In this document: positions 4,317-19,578 of the stretch, in pieces
How positions within the stretch are numbered: position 1 is the first letter of the stretch
How the letters are laid out: each line of letters starts with the position of its first letter
Virus record (IMG/VR): IMGVR_UViG_3300006754_006134
Span: 1-21,616 of that record
Length of the DNA stretch: 21,616 nt
Direction: 5' to 3' (one strand)
Source: a virus
The notes under the pieces: generated by a model
Databases searched by the model: none
What the model was told of the DNA's origin: nothing
What the model saw: the letters and a program-made list of their open reading frames with translations, nothing else
Made by a program: the position numbers and the translations under genes

Positions 4317-7300
4317 GCACTCCCTATCGTATTGGTTTCTGACGTTCTAAAGATACCACGTTTCGATCCTACCTCTAGAGCAATGTTCTCGATGACAAAC
4401 CCATCACCAGTTGCGGATGAGTTATCAGCATCGTAAATCTCAAATTTTATAGCTTCACATTTTTGCTTGGATAGGTGCGCTCGAAACTGAAGAAGCGCAT
4501 CTGTAGCAGAGTCAGTCGTAAACGTATACGTATCTATAGCCGCACTGTCGTCATAGTCATAGTAGACCTTCACAGTCAGAACATGCTTATCTTTGCTTTT
4601 TCCTAAAAGAGAAAACCGATAAGCACGAGCAAATCCCTGAATCCCATTAAGAGAAATCCATCCCGTCTTTAGCTTCGTAACCAGATAGGTCGTATCTAAC
4701 TTATAACCTGACTCCTTCCAAAATTTATTGGAGTCAGTGACAAGCATTATCTCTCCGTCATTATTCCCCATCCCCACAAACCGATCAGAGCCAAGGGTAG
4801 AGAACGTGAAGTGACTCCATTGATCAAATTCATAATTATAAACAAGGACGCTTGTGTTTAGGAGGAATCTTATCGTTGAAGTGGCTTGATCTTGGATCAT
4901 ATCTAAGACTCTAGACGAGCCAAGAGTGCTCTCAACCGGAGCACCTATATACTTAATACCACTCCCGGTAATCGCGTGTATGCCCTTTGCGTTTTGAAAG
5001 AATAGCCCTATATCAGAATAAAGAGTTGGGCTCCCGCGAAGAGCACCCATGCTATTGCTCACTATCCTCGGAGTATAGTAGCTTCCAGATCCAGTCCTAG
5101 ATGGACCATCACCATCCAAAGCCCATATGGAATTCTCTCTAAAGATATAAAGAGTCTCCCCCGAGCTCCCAAGGGCGGTTGGCTTGTCATCAAGAATGCC
5201 ATCCAGGGGGACAAAGAACGTATCATTGAAGTTGGTGCCGTGCCCATTCCTATACTCTTTACTGAAAAATATTCGATAATCTTCACTGATGATAAAGAGC
5301 CTATTTCGATGAGCTGCCACATAGAAACATGCTGGGCACCTTGTATTGGCGACCTCGCCAGAGTCAGTATAGAGCGCAGCAGACGAGAGAACATCATCAT
5401 CCTCTGCCTGGTCCACAAGCGTCTGAGTAAACGTCGAGTGCTGCCCTCTTATATTTCCAGCCGCATAATATAGGTTCCCATCACCCTCGGTCCGATACAC
5501 TAGGATCCTATACTTTCCTCCTGCGATTTTCTGGGAGGCACTATTGACGACGATCGTTACAGTATCATCGGAGGAATCAGTCGCTACTGACTTGGAATCG
5601 GACGGCTCGGATTGATAGAGATTCCCCTGGCTATCCTCCTGCTCGAATACGACCTTATACTTATATGTTTTGCTGCTATCCAGTCCTCCAGCAATGCCCC
5701 CATCAGACGCCGTTAAGGTCTTTATGTATGGCTTTGGCTTGCCAACAATATCCTGGTAGAGGTCAAAGGAGTCCCGAAACAGAGCATTTCCAGCAGTCCA
5801 ATAGATGTTTTTACCGATCTCCGCCCTTCTGACCCCATACGTGGGGACAGCATCAAACGAATACTTCACAATGGTTGGAACGGTAGCAAACTGAAAACCG
5901 GCGGCATCGTTAATTGACTGAGGCGGACCAAGCGTAGACATGACACCATAGGCACTGCCACCGTCAGAGGCTCTAACTGCTCTTCCGGGATGGCCGTTAA
6001 ATGTGCTGCCTATGTTTGCGGTTAGCGATGTACCGACCAGGTTCCCATCTTGATCGAAGTAATTGAGGGTCTCAATCCCTCTGGGGTAGACCTCCCTGTT
6101 TTCTAGGTTTGGGAAGATTGTCGTCTTGTGGTTATTCTTGCCAAATGTGAACTGGAATGCTCCTGACCCGGCAAACCCCTTGTTTATCTCTTGAGGGTCA
6201 TCATGGAACGCAAGCGAGCTTGGTGTCTTTATGGGTATCCTGTAGGTCACTTCCCCATCTGAAGCCCCAGTACCATAGGAGTTATAAACGAGATCAACAG
6301 TTTCAATACTAGACGTTACTGTGGGGTCCTCCTTGTTATCAACAAAATAAAGAAGCTTAAATGATGCCTCTGTATCTGTGCTTGTTTTTGTTATCGCGCT
6401 AGACAGCGATCCGCCTTCGGTGAAGTTATGAACTCGGATAGTATGCGGGACACCCGGGGTGATGAATCCGATATAGATCTTATCAGCTTCAATCGAAGAC
6501 TTACCCATAGCAAGATGGGCATACGTAAGAAGAGTATCTGGAGGAGCAGTAGCGCCAAGGCCAGTGCTTGTGTCCAGGGTGCCCGTCAGGGACGGAGAGG
6601 CTACATTATCTGTTATTGATGTATCCTTAACGATCCGAACGCTATACGTTGAGTCGTGCCGGTAATACCCAACATAAGCGCAATTTGCCGTAAAGGACTC
6701 AACGACATCAAAAGAACATTGATCCTTATGCTCCAGATAGTTATCCGACACAAGGGCCACTAAGCTATCAGAGCTTGACGCAATTGCCCCATCGTTATCA
6801 GGGCCGAATATTGTTCTGTTTAGCTCATCTGCTGCACCACCATCTGCACCGGCATTATTGTACTCGTAGTACACAGCAAACTGTGTTGCACTAATCGCGA
6901 CTGGCTTAATGCGTCCGTAGAAAGTGGTCTTAGCGAATGTCGATCCTGATAACCCGAAAGTAGTTTTCAGTATAGACATATTAGATGCATCAATGAGGTT
7001 AACGGAATAGCCGATGCCGCCGGTGCTTGACGACCCCTCTCTGACCAACACCGCAGACGTAATGCATATAAGAGAGTCATCTGTGCTAATTGCTATCTCT
7101 GGACTAGAGAAATAAACAAAATTATACGTAGAAGAGCCAGAGAAATCATGAGGTGATAACGGAAATACCTCTGTAGATAAAGGGCTCCACTTTGACTGTA
7201 GGCGACTCTTCGTTGAGGGAGACGCTGGATTAATTCTCCATGTATGCCCGCTGGCCTCTAGTCCATAATAAGCACCCTTGTACTGGAACGATCCCTCAAA

Positions 7301-7495
7301 GAAGTGGGTGCCAGCCCCGGCCGGGTATTCGAACTGGGTTTCAGTGTAACCCTTTCGCTTTTCTATCTCGCCATGCTTATTGAATACAGCATTCTCTAAG
7401 ACCTCAAGCTCTCCCGGCTCCAATGTAACATCGGTCTTCTTCGTTTGGATGCCTTTGCTGAATGGTATATTCGCTATTTTTTTCTGAAGAGCCAT
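4313..7495 (-). CDS. Tail nozzle / tail tubular protein B-like structural protein
   Basis: This 1060-aa protein is almost wholly beta-rich. Its N-terminus (NIPFSKGIQTKK, then NAVFNKHGEIEKRKGY) carries the pattern of an early conserved Asn, then Gly and Lys-Arg-x-Gly, seen at the start of phage nozzle proteins of the T7 gp12 / P22 gp10 type. A fibronectin-III-like stretch lies around residues 601-676. Propeller-like blades follow from about 725 to 905 (for example RNRLFIISEDYRIFFSK and GETLYIFRENSIWALDGDG). Such proteins form the hexameric distal tail through which DNA exits. I chose the ATG at 7495: it shares one base with the preceding stop (TAATG) and has GGGTG five bases upstream. An in-frame TTG at 7507 lacks a ribosome-binding site. 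The protein is longer than T7 gp12 (about 794 aa). The nozzle role rests on pattern and gene order, not on a search. Confidence 0.72.
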   Translation of the reverse strand: MALQKKIANIPFSKGIQTKKTDVTLEPGELEVLENAVFNKHGEIEKRKGYTETQFEYPAGAGTHFFEGSFQYKGAYYGLEASGHTWRINPASPSTKSRLQSKWSPLSTEVFPLSPHDFSGSSTYNFVYFSSPEIAISTDDSLICITSAVLVREGSSSTGGIGYSVNLIDASNMSILKTTFGLSGSTFAKTTFYGRIKPVAISATQFAVYYEYNNAGADGGAADELNRTIFGPDNDGAIASSSDSLVALVSDNYLEHKDQCSFDVVESFTANCAYVGYYRHDSTYSVRIVKDTSITDNVASPSLTGTLDTSTGLGATAPPDTLLTYAHLAMGKSSIEADKIYIGFITPGVPHTIRVHNFTEGGSLSSAITKTSTDTEASFKLLYFVDNKEDPTVTSSIETVDLVYNSYGTGASDGEVTYRIPIKTPSSLAFHDDPQEINKGFAGSGAFQFTFGKNNHKTTIFPNLENREVYPRGIETLNYFDQDGNLVGTSLTANIGSTFNGHPGRAVRASDGGSAYGVMSTLGPPQSINDAAGFQFATVPTIVKYSFDAVPTYGVRRAEIGKNIYWTAGNALFRDSFDLYQDIVGKPKPYIKTLTASDGGIAGGLDSSKTYKYKVVFEQEDSQGNLYQSEPSDSKSVATDSSDDTVTIVVNSASQKIAGGKYRILVYRTEGDGNLYYAAGNIRGQHSTFTQTLVDQAEDDDVLSSAALYTDSGEVANTRCPACFYVAAHRNRLFIISEDYRIFFSKEYRNGHGTNFNDTFFVPLDGILDDKPTALGSSGETLYIFRENSIWALDGDGPSRTGSGSYYTPRIVSNSMGALRGSPTLYSDIGLFFQNAKGIHAITGSGIKYIGAPVESTLGSSRVLDMIQDQATSTIRFLLNTSVLVYNYEFDQWSHFTFSTLGSDRFVGMGNNDGEIMLVTDSNKFWKESGYKLDTTYLVTKLKTGWISLNGIQGFARAYRFSLLGKSKDKHVLTVKVYYDYDDSAAIDTYTFTTDSATDALLQFRAHLSKQKCEAIKFEIYDADNSSATGDGFVIENIALEVGSKRGIFRTSETNTIGSA

Positions 7496-13632: not shown

Positions 13633-15114
13633 CTAGTTGAAGAGATCGGCATCAGAATACCCATCACCCCATACATCAGGATCATACAAGGTTTTATCTT
13701 GCTCCTCAAGCAGTTTTTGCTCCATGTCATCCTCAAGTTGCCTAAAGTAGGCTGGAGAGCCCGGTATAGGGACTGATTCCGCCTCTTCAAATAGATAGTG
13801 TCTAGACTCTTGCCATGCATATAGGGCAGCGTCAGATAAGTGGTTCTCGAACCGTCTGTCTTCGGCAGTGCCTGCCTTATTGTATTGTAGCTTATCCCAT
13901 TCCTCGAGCAGCTCGAGTCCTCTCTTCACCTTGATGTTGCAGAGTTTAAGGTCTGAGTTCATGATCTTAATCATCCCAACCTTATCTCCTGACTTCTTAG
14001 CAGCCTGGACAGGGATGTTAGATCTCTGCTTGAACGTTTCCAGTAGCATCTTTGATGATCCGCCGCCGGAGTCCATGACTATAGACGTGAATTTATAGTC
14101 CCCCATAAATCTTCTTATTTTGTCCTCGACATCGGACGTAAGCATCCGATTTTGTTTATACTCGTCAATGATATAAAGACATGGGTAGTCAGGAGTCCAC
14201 GCAGTAACAACGAAGGCGGTTGCATCATGATAACCAAGGTCAATTCCCAGGGTGAATTCCCATTTATCGCTGTAGGGTCGTTCCTCAAACAGATTGTTTT
14301 GAGTGTAATTATACACGATTTCCTGATCGTCTCTGACCCAAAGACCAAGATATTCGCGTTTGTAGGAGGGATCGCTGGGGTCCAAGATCCCATTCTTAAT
14401 GTCCTGCTCGATGGCAGCGACCGCATGTCTCATGTGGGGGTTGTTTTTGATTGTCCATTTGTGAACTGAGAAATTATAGGTCCCTTTCTCGGTAAGATCA
14501 TAGAAGAACCCATGGCATGCGCTATTTGGGGTGGAGATCATAACCAGTGCTCCGTCTCTATCCAGGAGTGCGGGCGTTATAACCTCATTAACTAGTTCCT
14601 TCAGCTTGATATTAAAGAAGGCAGCCTCATCAAGAACAGCCAGGGAGAAGGCAGCGCCACGGAGTTTATCTATATCACTGGCATCATTTGCCCCGGTAAA
14701 GATTATTTTAGAGCCATTTGGGAAGATAGCGATCAAATCCGCATTATTAAACTTAATCCCAAGCCTAAATCGGATGCTTGCTTCTTTCATGGATGACCAC
14801 AGGATTCTCTTGGCTGCTTCTCGTGTCCTTGCGACATAGACGCATGTGGTGCCGTCATCCTCCAGGGCCTCTTTCATGAGGTATCTGCCTGCTGCGTAGC
14901 TTTTCCCTGATCGTCGGCTACATATGGCAGCCTTCCTTTTTGAGTCGTCATTAATGAAGTCGAGCTGTTCTTTGAAGAGTGTCCTTGAGAGGTTTAGTGC
15001 TCTAGACTTCTTCTGTTGCTTCTGCGCCATACTGGGGGCGCTCTGTGCCTTTATCCTTACGGCCAGTGCCTCAAATATTTCTCTGTCTGTGAGTGTGAGA
15101 TCAGGCAGCGCCAT
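13633..15114 (-). CDS. terL: Terminase large subunit (ATPase and nuclease)
   Basis: This 493-aa motor packages phage DNA into the procapsid and cuts concatemers. The ATPase motifs are Walker A CSRRSGKS (residues 65-72), Walker B AVLDEAAF (159-166) and coupling motif MISTPNS (192-198). The RNase H-like nuclease aspartates sit in GIDLG (D292), VMDSGGG (D348) and HLSDAA (D428). I start at the ATG at 15114 because AGGAGG lies six bases upstream. A longer in-frame extension to 15189 would sit inside the GNAT-like gene and lacks such a site. The chosen start overlaps the upstream gene by 14 bases. All key residues are present, so the enzyme should be active. Confidence 0.95.
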   Translation of the reverse strand: MALPDLTLTDREIFEALAVRIKAQSAPSMAQKQQKKSRALNLSRTLFKEQLDFINDDSKRKAAICSRRSGKSYAAGRYLMKEALEDDGTTCVYVARTREAAKRILWSSMKEASIRFRLGIKFNNADLIAIFPNGSKIIFTGANDASDIDKLRGAAFSLAVLDEAAFFNIKLKELVNEVITPALLDRDGALVMISTPNSACHGFFYDLTEKGTYNFSVHKWTIKNNPHMRHAVAAIEQDIKNGILDPSDPSYKREYLGLWVRDDQEIVYNYTQNNLFEERPYSDKWEFTLGIDLGYHDATAFVVTAWTPDYPCLYIIDEYKQNRMLTSDVEDKIRRFMGDYKFTSIVMDSGGGSSKMLLETFKQRSNIPVQAAKKSGDKVGMIKIMNSDLKLCNIKVKRGLELLEEWDKLQYNKAGTAEDRRFENHLSDAALYAWQESRHYLFEEAESVPIPGSPAYFRQLEDDMEQKLLEEQDKTLYDPDVWGDGYSDADLFN

Positions 15115-15559
15115 CGTATACCTCCTGCCCTTTTTTATTTTTGTCGGCATGGAGTGAATGGATAACAGAGGCCAGAAGATTGGAAACAAACTTTACATTC
15201 CACTTGGCCCGGGCATTTAGTGCCTGCATATGATGAGACCAATAAGTACAGAAGAGCTGGACAGGAGGGTCAGAAGACAGAGCATTGATAAGCTCAGTGC
15301 CCACATGGCTGCGTCTAAAATTCTTCTTAACAAAGAGGTAGTGCAGTAGTTTGGTACCTTCATTACGGCCATAAGCCAGCCAGCCAACGATATGATTCTC
15401 GTCATCGTCAGGACACCAAACCAGAATGTCACCAGCTTCAACAACTGAATCAATTAGGAACCTCGTCATATTAGTCACGCCACGGTTAGGGCATTTAACC
15501 GAATGCAACCAGGAGTGATAGATAAAATCCTCATCTATCCTTTTCATCTCTCTAATCAT
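15101..15559 (-). CDS. GNAT-like N-acetyltransferase-fold protein next to terminase
   Basis: This 152-aa protein starts MIREMKRIDEDFIYHSWLHS. The acidic residue, F-I-x-x-S-W-L-x-S pattern and a following GNAT-like core occur in proteins often encoded beside phage terminases. Core elements are the strand GDILVWCPDD, IVGWLAYGR, the strand KLLHYLFVKKNFR, and a degenerate acetyl-CoA loop at RRSHVGTEL (residues 82-90). In that loop the usual first glycine of R-x-x-G-x-G/A is replaced by His. The gene overlaps its upstream neighbour by 8 bases and TerL by 14. Substrate is unknown; the protein may have a structural role if acetyl-CoA binding is lost. Confidence 0.68.
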   Translation of the reverse strand: MIREMKRIDEDFIYHSWLHSVKCPNRGVTNMTRFLIDSVVEAGDILVWCPDDDENHIVGWLAYGRNEGTKLLHYLFVKKNFRRSHVGTELINALSSDPPVQLFCTYWSHHMQALNARAKWNVKFVSNLLASVIHSLHADKNKKGQEVYDGAA

Positions 15560-15986
15560 TTTCTTTCGCTTCCCGGATAGCCTTCTTGGCTAAACGTTTC
15601 AGTTCATCAGTAGAAAGAGAGGAGATAGCATCAGACTTAAGCACCACCTCAATCTCTAGCAGTTTCTTCATTCCACCATAACAGCTATCAAGCTTACTCA
15701 TATCCTTGGTGTCTAGATCTTCCCCATCCTCCACCTTCGTCTTAAGGGCTTTGATCTGACTCTCCGTTATGGAAAAGAGATCATCCCATAAAGCATGCTT
15801 GTCCTTACTCTGAACAACCCGCACCTTCTTACCATCAATGCCATAAGAACCAGCAGAACGAGCCTTCTTAACCACACCATGCTTAGTCACAGTAGAACGA
15901 CCAAACTTAGACGCCCTACCTGCACGAGTCGTGGGTGTAGAGCTTGTTCCAGACGTTACTTTCTCTTTCTTCTTTGCTTCTTCCAT
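15552..15986 (-). CDS. Putative terminase small subunit / first late gene
   Basis: This 144-aa protein has a basic, Ser/Thr-rich, probably disordered N-terminus (GRASKFGRSTVTKHGVVKKA). A helical core follows (ALWDDLFSITESQIKALKTK), then a charged helical tail ending LKRLAKKAIREAKEND. It is the first gene of the late operon, two genes before TerL, where small terminases usually lie. A basic DNA-binding region plus helical oligomerisation segments would fit that role, but no family motif is clear. The start has no Shine-Dalgarno sequence; the bases before ATG are AAAATTAGATT. A candidate -10 box lies so close that the message could be almost leaderless. Confidence 0.62.
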   Translation of the reverse strand: MEEAKKKEKVTSGTSSTPTTRAGRASKFGRSTVTKHGVVKKARSAGSYGIDGKKVRVVQSKDKHALWDDLFSITESQIKALKTKVEDGEDLDTKDMSKLDSCYGGMKKLLEIEVVLKSDAISSLSTDELKRLAKKAIREAKEND

Positions 15987-17044: not shown

Positions 17045-17761
17045 ATGAACATTGATTTTAATATTGAAGAGTTAATTAAGCAAGTTGATATTGACGCCTC
17101 ACAAATGGGCTACTCAAAGAAGACATACCAGAAAACGCAATTGCCTGTCACCGATAGGCTGTGTGTTGCCAAGGCTCAACTTCGAGCCAGGCAATACAAG
17201 CAAAAGCATATCGACCCAAGGCAGGCAAAGTTGAAGGCAATGGAAGCCCTAGACTGCAAAATCTATTTGTGGAGAGAGACCGGAGCGCCCAAAGCAGAAG
17301 CGGTCCATCAGAAGCATGAAGCAAACAAGTGGGCCATCAAGAAGGAGTTGAAAGTTCACTGGGGTGAATTCCACCTCCGGAAGGATTCGCCATTAGGTCA
17401 CGGAATCAACCGTGGTGAGATGAGCAGATGCTTCGGATGGATATGCAGTCAATTAGAAGACATGCCAGGCGTTACGCGTGACAAGGAAACCCGCAGATTA
17501 GACTTCGACTCGATAACGGTCGAGCACATGGAAGCAGTGGTTGACCTTCTGGAGAAAGAGCTCGAAGGTGAAAGGTCCGATGACGATTGCCTAGAATACA
17601 CGGCAAAAATCGACGGCATGGACGACCTATTGGTTGACCGGGTCATTGGCGATAATTCGGAGCCTGACTTCGATTCATTGCTTGCTGAAGAGTACGCAAA
17701 GATTGATGCCCTTGCTGCAAAGAGCAACAAGAACTCATCGATTCAATGGAAAAACCTATAA
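17045..17761 (+). CDS. Lone 238-aa protein of unknown function (moron-like)
   Basis: The protein begins MNIDFNIEELIKQVDIDASQ. The first 150 residues are basic, helical and aromatic-poor, with a central CFGWICSQLED motif. From about residue 165 the protein becomes acidic and ends in helices rich in Asp/Glu and a Ser/Asn-rich tail. It resembles no enzyme that I know; a DNA- or RNA-binding regulator is possible from the basic half. I prefer the ATG at 17045, which has AAAGGA six bases upstream, over the in-frame ATG at 17003, which lies at the expected transcription start. The gene stands alone, with a candidate promoter before it and a hairpin 17 bases after its stop, unlike the packed operons on both sides. 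Confidence 0.75.
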   Translation: MNIDFNIEELIKQVDIDASQMGYSKKTYQKTQLPVTDRLCVAKAQLRARQYKQKHIDPRQAKLKAMEALDCKIYLWRETGAPKAEAVHQKHEANKWAIKKELKVHWGEFHLRKDSPLGHGINRGEMSRCFGWICSQLEDMPGVTRDKETRRLDFDSITVEHMEAVVDLLEKELEGERSDDDCLEYTAKIDGMDDLLVDRVIGDNSEPDFDSLLAEEYAKIDALAAKSNKNSSIQWKNL

Positions 17762-17799: not shown

Positions 17800-17820
17800 T
17801 CTAAAATCCAAAAAAAAATT

Positions 17821-18138
17821 TTTCGCTCGCAAGCTCGCGGGCGCTCGAAGACTCGCTTGAAGTCGATGGAAACGCTTCGCGCTGCGTTACTTCTTCGGTG
17901 CTTGTCCTTGCTGTTTGTTTAGGGCTGCCCCTGTTGACGCGGGAAGCCCGCTCGGGGCCGCCAAAGTAGTCTGTGGTTCCGTTATCGTGGCACAAGCCTC
18001 CATTGTGTTTGTTGCCAGCGTGGGATTCAGTGGTTCCGAACCCAAGGCACAAGCCTCCATCGCGTGCATTGCCAACGTGAGATTCAGTGGGTCCGAGGTC
18101 GAGACATAAGCTTCGATGAGAAAGCGTTGCGAGCGAGA
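17821..18138. repeat. Inverted repeats framing the tandem-repeat segment
   Basis: TTTCGCTCGCAA (17821-17832) pairs in inverted orientation with TTGCGAGCGAGA (18127-18138), 11 of 12 positions complementary and nine in the core perfect. They bracket the tandem repeats almost exactly. This could be the trace of a mobile or transferred element, although no transposase is present and no target duplication was found by eye. Confidence 0.4.
17990..18117. repeat. 57-base tandem repeat, two full copies plus a partial third
   Basis: Copy one spans 17990-18046 and copy two 18047-18103; 45 of 57 positions agree, starting with a shared GCACAAGCCTCCAT. A third, diverged start of a copy (ACATAAGCTTCGAT) follows at 18104-18117. 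A degraded partial copy (CTGTGGTTCCG) can be seen just before copy one. The period is 19 codons, so any frame through it yields a 19-residue repeat. The copies are too diverged and too few for CRISPR. Confidence 0.65.
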
Positions 18139-18279
18139 GATTTGGGGCGCTCCTCTGCACTGACGCTTTTCCATACTTACTATTAAGAGTCCAAATACCC
18201 CAAGATCCATAAATTCAAAAACACCCCCCCTGTTAAGCTTCATGAAAGTGAGATGGGGAAAGGATTAGGAGAGATTAGG

Positions 18280-18585
18280 ATGGTAACTTTAAGAGAGGCA
18301 ATTGCAAGAGAGGAAGTAAATATGAAGATGCGGCAGAGTATAGAGACAAAAGAGAGGACTGTAGTTGAGGAAGACGACACAGTAGCCACCTATATCACAG
18401 CAAAAACAGCTGCCAGGACAGAGAGGGTCCTAGAAGACCTAGGTCTAAGCTATGAAGAGAACCATCTCTTGGCGGCAAAGAAGCTTTTAGACCTACTTGG
18501 GTGGCCCTACAAGCATATCGCAGGGGGATCAAACGCAGAGCAAGATGGGTTCAATTTCGTGCTCATCGAGGAGGAGAGAGTATGA
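18280..18585 (+). CDS. First gene of rightward operon, 101-aa protein of unknown function
   Basis: The protein begins MVTLREAIAREEVNMKMRQS. An N-terminal charged helix is followed by TYITAKTAARTERVLEDLGL, a helical region with KKLLDLLGWPYKHI, and a short C-terminal strand (GFNFVLIEEERV). I chose the ATG at 18280, which has AGGAG eight bases upstream, over the in-frame ATG at 18253, which has only a poor site. The stop overlaps the next start as ATGA. No family is recognised. As first gene of the rightward operon it may be among the earliest expressed. Confidence 0.68.
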   Translation: MVTLREAIAREEVNMKMRQSIETKERTVVEEDDTVATYITAKTAARTERVLEDLGLSYEENHLLAAKKLLDLLGWPYKHIAGGSNAEQDGFNFVLIEEERV

Positions 18586-18800
18586 AGGAGCAAGGAACAC
18601 CAGACTCCCGGGCATGGGATAACATGGAGAGATCAGAAAAAATAGAGATCCTAAGAAACAGGATGCTCGCATACAGGAGAGTCCTAGATGGGATAGAAGA
18701 TTTCTTCCATTGGGGGGGGAGACTCGGGATCATTGAAGGGGGCATTGAGTTTGCGCTGAAGGAAAACAAAAGGAGAAGGAATGACGACAGCAAGGAATAG
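18582..18800 (+). CDS. Tandem-paralog family member 1 (72 aa)
   Basis: This 72-aa protein begins MKEQGTPDSRAWDNMERSEK. Its middle (residues 34-61) carries the motif shared with the next three genes: a helix, the turn HWGGRLG, then IIEGGIEFAL. The C-terminus is basic (KENKRRRN). The coding sequence of the turn contains a G8 run (18712-18719), where slippage would shift the frame. The start is fixed by an ATGA overlap and an upstream GAGGAGAG sequence. No known family is recognised; a small helical protein is predicted. Confidence 0.68.
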   Translation: MKEQGTPDSRAWDNMERSEKIEILRNRMLAYRRVLDGIEDFFHWGGRLGIIEGGIEFALKENKRRRNDDSKE

Positions 18801-19014
18801 TAGAGAGAAAAGGGTAGACGCCATCCGTGAAAGGCTAATGGCAGAGGGGGAGATGATAAAGAAGGTGGAAGATCTCGTTAAGCTCGGGGGCAAGCCACAC
18901 ATGATCATGGAGACTGTTAAGCATACGATCGAGAGGATAGCGCCCCCAGCTGGCAGTGTTAGCGGGGGCATGAAAACATTACCAGGAAAGAGGAAAAAGA
19001 ACAATGACAGATGA
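18781..19014 (+). CDS. Tandem-paralog family member 2 (77 aa)
   Basis: This 77-aa protein begins MTTARNSREKRVDAIRERLM. Residues 25-52 carry the shared motif: VEDLVKLGG, four variable residues, then IMETVKHTIER. The C-terminal tail is Gly/Pro-containing and basic (PGKRKKNNDR). It starts inside the previous gene (20-base overlap) with AAGGAGAAGG just before the ATG, and overlaps the next gene by 11 bases. The function is unknown. Confidence 0.66.
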   Translation: MTTARNSREKRVDAIRERLMAEGEMIKKVEDLVKLGGKPHMIMETVKHTIERIAPPAGSVSGGMKTLPGKRKKNNDR

Positions 19015-19249
19015 AGAGAGCAGCAAAAGCTGGGAAGAAAGATGGAACATCCTCTTGGAGGAGAATCTAGCCATCAGCTTCCATGACCTAAGCGTCATCG
19101 TCGATAGGATCCTCAATGGGGGGGGACAGATTCACGACCTAATAGAGTCTGTGAGCAGCAGTATTAACGAGTGGGTGAGGGAGGGGGAGCGCGACAAGGC
19201 AATTCAAGGGGATTTAGAAAGGGCCAGAGAATTACTTCAAAAGAAATAA
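19004..19249 (+). CDS. Tandem-paralog family member 3 (81 aa)
   Basis: This 81-aa protein begins MTDEESSKSWEERWNILLEE. The shared motif lies at residues 29-57: LSVIVDRILNGGGQIHDLIE, then SVSSSINEW. As in member 1, the glycine turn is encoded by a G8 run (19118-19125). The C-terminal third is a charged helix (GDLERARELLQKK). The start overlaps the previous gene. The function is unknown. Confidence 0.66.
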   Translation: MTDEESSKSWEERWNILLEENLAISFHDLSVIVDRILNGGGQIHDLIESVSSSINEWVREGERDKAIQGDLERARELLQKK

Positions 19250-19260
19250 GGGGAGACAAG

Positions 19261-19578
19261 ATGATAAAGAAAAGAGGGCGGGTGTCATCACTATACCATG
19301 ACATGGCGGAAGCAGTGGAAGGATTGCTTGAGGAAGGCGAAAGCACCCAGACGATTCTGAAAGCTGCCACAGCCGACATAGGGGTGTGGATGGAGAAAAG
19401 GGATGCAGATGCAAGGCTTCTTGCGAAAAAGGGAGAGCTAAGGCTTTCCTGGCTTGCTGACGAGATTAATGCGCTCATCAGGGACTCTAAGGGAGAGCAG
19501 TATCTCGACAGTGAAAGGGCTGTCAATGTCTTGATCAAGGCGAAAAAACTGATCAGAGGACTGAGGAAGGAGGTCTGA
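19261..19578 (+). CDS. Tandem-paralog family member 4 (105 aa)
   Basis: This 105-aa protein begins MIKKRGRVSSLYHDMAEAVE. The motif at residues 14-43 is the most diverged: AVEGLLEEGESTQTILKAAT, then ADIGVW, with Gly-Glu in place of Gly-Gly. The C-terminal half is an additional helical region (LSWLADEINALIRDSKGEQ, then ERAVNVLIKAKKLIRGL). I start at the ATG at 19261, which has AAGGGGAG seven bases upstream; the same frame is open leftward but overlaps the previous gene. The function is unknown. Confidence 0.68.
   Translation: MIKKRGRVSSLYHDMAEAVEGLLEEGESTQTILKAATADIGVWMEKRDADARLLAKKGELRLSWLADEINALIRDSKGEQYLDSERAVNVLIKAKKLIRGLRKEV

Follow-up and report, generated by a model that had tools for sequence, protein, structure and literature searches.

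What are four small neighbouring genes, whose products share a short helix-glycine-helix motif, doing at the head of a phage operon? The question is raised by IMGVR_UViG_3300006754_006134, whose entire viral record of 21,616 bases constitutes the stretch of DNA analysed here (the window). On its minus strand lie the genes for the terminase large subunit (TerL), a P22/SU10-like portal and an SU10-like capsid protein, and on its plus strand an operon of early type, “early” being a term read here from gene content. The four genes, here called A to D, head this divergent operon. TerL was used as the anchor for finding related phages, yielding 36 and later 80 related loci. These relatives are uncultivated viral contigs, together with one contig binned into an Acidiferrobacteraceae MAG from the Red Sea (L108, PBOB01000051.1), which gives a weak hint as to the host of the phage group. 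One of them, IMGVR_UViG_3300030332_001635 (the sister contig), is about 98% identical to the window phage, and in it the early operon extends through DnaJ-domain, PD-(D/E)XK, AAA_24 and IstB/DnaC-like genes. The DnaJ-domain gene (Pfam DnaJ, E 2.7e-10) occupies 6864-7364 of that contig (L043), corresponding to the window from about 21138 onward.

Upstream of the operon, two tandem 57-nt direct repeats, 75% identical and non-coding (17970-18083), separate it from a 252-aa gene (17045-17761). They are flanked by a 17-nt inverted repeat (17816-17832 / 18127-18143), and the repeat region is possibly an origin or a regulatory region. The 252-aa gene itself has 45 differing positions relative to its sister-contig ortholog amid flanking early genes that are almost identical, which suggests local recombination. 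A scan anchored on this gene beside the early operon found no further phage.

A sequence-only reading had proposed four consecutive genes of 72, 77, 81 and 105 residues, and their coordinates and lengths proved correct, all four being plus-strand open reading frames (Table 1). It had also described them as overlapping, which is so for A-B and B-C; C and D are separated by an 11-nt gap. The ATG of gene A shares bases with the stop codon of the gene before it (ATGA), and each of the four has a plausible purine-rich ribosome-binding site close upstream. All are intact in the sister contig, with 93-100% amino acid identity, and IMG/VR scans with each of them returned that contig as the sole match. 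Genes A, B and C belong to no family in Pfam, PHROGs or NCBIfam; searches of 50,697 phage records with A, B and D, run at permissive E, yielded no credible relative, and C has no match in phage records searched up to E 1.

Table 1. Positions of the genes and of the gene D segment discussed in the text, in window coordinates.
Feature	Position	Strand	Basis or remark
Terminase large subunit (TerL)	13633..15189	-	Pfam Terminase_6N 2e-13
Conserved gene for a 144-aa protein, immediately upstream of GNAT-TerL; by position a candidate for the terminase small subunit (TerS)	15552..15986	-	homologues at the same position in nine other contigs
Upstream gene of the same operon, 110 aa, likelier start 18280	18253..18585	+	no sequence relation to A-D
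Gene A, 72 aa, helix-GG-helix protein, probable paralogue of B	18582..18800	+	strong ribosome-binding site; A-B 0/10,000 shuffles
Gene B, 77 aa, predicted long helix, GG, helix and disordered tail; probable paralogue of A	18781..19014	+	AF2 model, shuffle test
Gene C, 81 aa, probable paralogue of D	19004..19249	+	best non-self match D; hhalign C-D score 19.1, above controls
Gene D, 105 aa, remotely homologous to Sf6-type TerS by profile comparison	19261..19578	+	phrog_1482, PF20901, hhalign, TerS HMM
Part of gene D encoding LYHDMAEAVEGLLEEGESTQTILKAATADIGVWME, aligned with TerS helix 1, GES turn and helix 2/3 region; contains the shared motif	19291..19395	+	alignment to Sf6 gp1

Does the shared motif exceed what chance would give? 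An aligned core (V/I-E/D-x-h-h-x-x-G-G/E, followed by I/L-h-E/K) had been claimed for all four proteins. Its first half, through the I/L after Gly-Gly, is present in all four and in no other ORF among the 16,530 of about 90 related contigs, the regular expression being post hoc and fitted to A-D themselves; the full expression matches B, C and D only, the second half fitting A with a one-residue shift. The best ungapped four-way block of 30 columns falls in exactly the proposed register and scores 120, a value reached by 0 of 200 shuffles (mean 30, maximum 71; z = 6.1). Taken pairwise, A-B likeness is matched by none of 10,000 shuffles (z = 7.4, also without the C-terminal tail), that of C-D by 8 of 10,000 (1 of 10,000 for the core alone), and the weak, borderline likeness of B-C by 153 of 10,000; A-C, A-D and B-D give no pairwise signal in shuffle tests or profile comparison. 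The tails of A and B are also alike (KRRRNDD/KRKKNND), and these KR-rich ends (18770-18800 in A, 18985-19014 in B) are encoded where the following gene has its ribosome site and start. Since the same DNA thus has a second duty, this likeness is explicable without protein homology, and the tail was left out of the A-B test for that reason.

Because amphipathic helices inflate shuffle tests, small proteins from related phages were used as controls. Among 1,596 pairs of 57 such proteins, A-B ranks first and C-D sixth, and in single-sequence searches of the 16,530 ORFs the best non-self matches are reciprocal (A with B, C with D). Profile-profile comparison against 51 controls tells the same story, only the within-pair scores clearly exceeding them. 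At the DNA level, similarity among the four genes is absent.

The four genes had been taken to be diverged paralogs of one another. The HMM-HMM comparison proposed as a check is significant for A-B and for C-D, and profile {A,B} against profile {C,D} recovers the proposed register at p about 0.02. Paralogy is thus supported by sequence comparison within the adjacent pairs, and is not proven across all four; many comparisons were made, and the within-pair results, like the link between D and TerS described below, stand well clear of controls, which the A/B-C/D link does not. One small ancestral protein, TerS-like or not, may nevertheless have given rise to all four by serial duplication. This tentative reading would account for the tandem arrangement, the four-way block, the common register of the two pair profiles and the leave-one-out searches of about 16,500 ORFs, in which {A,C,D} places B at rank 3 and {A,B,C} places D at rank 18. 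It sits poorly, however, with the three pairs that lack any signal, with a left-out gene A that is never recovered by profiles from the remaining genes, and with the {A,B} HMM, which retrieves neither C (rank 492) nor D (rank 955) from the 16,530 ORFs; the {C,D} HMM has B at rank 13 and does not retrieve A at all. Helix-Gly-helix hairpins are, moreover, a common shape and easily convergent.

It is quite plausible, if somewhat short of an even chance, that A/B and C/D are instead two unrelated pairs which converged on this shape, C/D alone being TerS-derived. The confinement of clear excess over controls to the pairs would then be expected, and gene B has a second likeness, of about the same weak degree, to a 64-aa protein encoded at the equivalent place in another relative (G002 15620-15814), so that the helix-Gly-helix shape recurs among small early genes of this group. 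Convergence would nonetheless have to produce a gap-free common register over 30 columns in all four proteins, as well as the borderline B-C likeness. A wider family including the G002 64-aa gene and a 60-aa gene of G004 was considered and dropped, the good score being against gene B only. Small early genes at G002 15620-15814, G004 23093-23275 and G008 58742-58912 share an N-terminal MGA(M/R)K(N/Q)xL and differ in their C-terminal halves.

No named family had been recognised for these proteins, and for D this is wrong. The main new result of this analysis is that gene D is, as judged from profile comparison, remotely homologous to the Sf6-type terminase small subunit (PF20901/phrog_1482); the analysis is limited by single-digit numbers of homologues, low-confidence models and a weak Pfam score. 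Gene D matches phrog_1482 at E 0.0058, its sole PHROG match below E 0.01, and its sister-contig ortholog does so at E 4.3e-4, again as the sole significant match. The match spans only positions 7-86 of 147, and the family is promiscuous at low scores, 7 of 14 control genomes matching it at permissive thresholds; in 18 related records, phrog_1482 and the TerS-like models match no other gene. PF20901 (Sf6_terminase) is the sole Pfam match, with E 0.061 for D and 0.0061 for the ortholog, the 13.8 bits of D lying below the curated gathering cut-off of 27 bits. Direct alignment of D to Sf6 gp1, the small subunit of Shigella phage Sf6, gives z 5.4-6. A home-made TerS HMM, built from nine TerS proteins (Sf6 gp1 and eight diverse relatives), gives the two D orthologs the top two places in the 16,530 ORFs (E 2.9e-4 and 1.8e-3, model positions 1-103), and hhalign aligns D to the Sf6-type TerS over 86 columns with P 77% and E 2e-5. 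The score of this alignment, 34.2, exceeds the highest values reached by 51 controls (16.9) and by 300 shuffles (20.4). Foldseek with the AF2 model of D gave no significant match to TerS or to anything else, and no credible match came from searching PDB sequences with D or with C+D. Gene C alone has no significant match to TerS, and its “SINEWVRE” stands in register with the Trp of the TerS recognition helix; genes A and B show no TerS link.

TerS proteins are described as a helix-turn-helix (HTH), a helical oligomerisation core, a stalk and a variable tail (PMC9611059). The first 89 residues of D align with the N-terminal HTH and the central oligomerisation region of the Sf6-type TerS, in register from the GR(P)S start through helix 1, the G-E-S turn, helix 2 and the conserved Trp to LADEI/DEI. 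On this alignment, the helix-Gly-helix motif in D corresponds to the TerS helix-turn-helix from helix 1 through the turn to helix 2. Unlike the Sf6-type protein, D is without the stalk and the C-terminal YGDK region, and four residues (the GMPD region of Sf6 gp1) are missing at the alpha2-alpha3 turn of the HTH. In the unrelated small terminase of Bacillus phage SF6, this turn and the start of alpha3 were the parts most affected by DNA, and contacts with DNA were observed at the turn (PMC4737164). As the turn is four residues shorter in D, its helices 2 and 3 probably form one continuous helix, and AF2 predicts, with low confidence, a single helix 29-46 where the residues are missing. The whole model of D (helices 7-24, 29-46, 56-75 and 84-104; pLDDT 65, low confidence) is compatible, at that same low confidence, with an HTH plus a hairpin, the first two parts of TerS. 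In gene B, AF2 predicts helices 3-34 and 39-53 at an equally low mean pLDDT of 65, and both models place a helix-turn-helix hairpin at the motif.

Does D then initiate packaging? Unlike the Sf6-type TerS gene, gene D does not adjoin TerL but lies 4.1 kb from it, on the opposite strand and in the early operon, and the window phage has another TerS candidate besides D. This candidate, the 144-aa gene of Table 1, recurs in the TerS position across nearly all the related contigs in which the region is included (homologues in nine others); a GNAT-type acetyltransferase gene (15101-15559) lies between it and TerL, here and in the related contigs covering the region. The 144-aa protein matches no family, and against the Sf6-type TerS its hhalign score is within the control range, so it is not of Sf6 type. 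The idea that D has moved into the early operon and serves there as the functional packaging TerS, while the 144-aa gene does something else, draws on this absence of any family match and on the TerS models recognising no protein of the genome other than D. We consider it quite unlikely: the 144-aa gene is conserved at the TerS position, while D is confined, among related contigs, to the window phage and the sister contig, has lost the HTH turn and the conserved C-terminal region, and lies with the early operon on the opposite strand. Since another candidate adjoins TerL in nearly all relatives that include the region, we take D to be probably an additional TerS-like protein, repurposed for an early role, and most likely not the packaging initiator.

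The iterative search for relatives in other phages that had been suggested found one. A C/D profile run against the 16,530 ORFs ranks first a 55-aa gene of contig G008 (IMGVR_UViG_3300030099_006113, 58361-58528; E 0.007) that was absent from the set used to build it, and hhalign aligns it to C+D with P 72% and E 3.6e-5. This gene belongs to a more distant phage, where it occupies the equivalent position, on the strand opposite TerL and about 4 kb away from it. Like C and D it has the LYHDL...IERLM..HG core; unlike them it is single-copy, lacks the second hairpin and has other neighbours. With this relative as the query, an IMG/VR scan returned only itself. G008 is 68,173 bases long and contains two diverged TerL/portal/capsid sets about 37 kb apart, making it a chimera, two adjacent prophages or a dimer of different phages.

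Duplication and divergence had also been ascribed to competition with variable host targets. The analysis gives this claim no support: the two near-identical genomes hold too few changes for a selection test, and structurally the nearest precedent is one of DNA binding and oligomerisation. Between window and sister contig, A to D have 3, 4, 0 and 11 nucleotide differences. The 9 changed codons of D comprise 7 non-synonymous and 2 synonymous changes, those of A are 3 and 0, and C and the neighbouring genes are nearly unchanged. Host-takeover decoys diversified against variable targets might look like this: small genes that lead an early operon and diverge fast, with such an excess in D and A. 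The changes in D are clustered, however, as a single recombination event would also make them, and the counts are far too small for a test of selection; we regard the decoy reading as very unlikely.

The explanation that we favour, and judge evenly balanced between right and wrong, is that A-D are early helical-hairpin proteins forming two diverged tandem pairs, D being a repurposed TerS relative that acts early rather than as packaging initiator. Two tandem duplications followed by strong divergence would have produced the pairs A-B and C-D. Gene D would be a TerS-like module stripped of its stalk and YGDK region, oligomerising through its helical core, and the shortened HTH turn may change or abolish DNA recognition. 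As an early regulator it may bind nucleic acid or else some other protein, of the phage or of the host, with A-C as shorter hairpin relatives or partners, so that the set would act early as regulators or adaptors. A more far-reaching version, which we think unlikely, is that the early operon co-opted a TerS-like module, trimmed its HTH turn and multiplied it into a group of small interacting hairpin proteins; these would regulate early expression or packaging, a different TerS doing the packaging.

A TerS profile match alone is, on this account, no proof of a packaging TerS. If the favoured explanation is true, a packaging module, duplicated and deprived of some of its parts, would be one route to the small early phage proteins that escape classification, and A-D would gain a testable biochemical starting point in oligomerisation and nucleic-acid binding.
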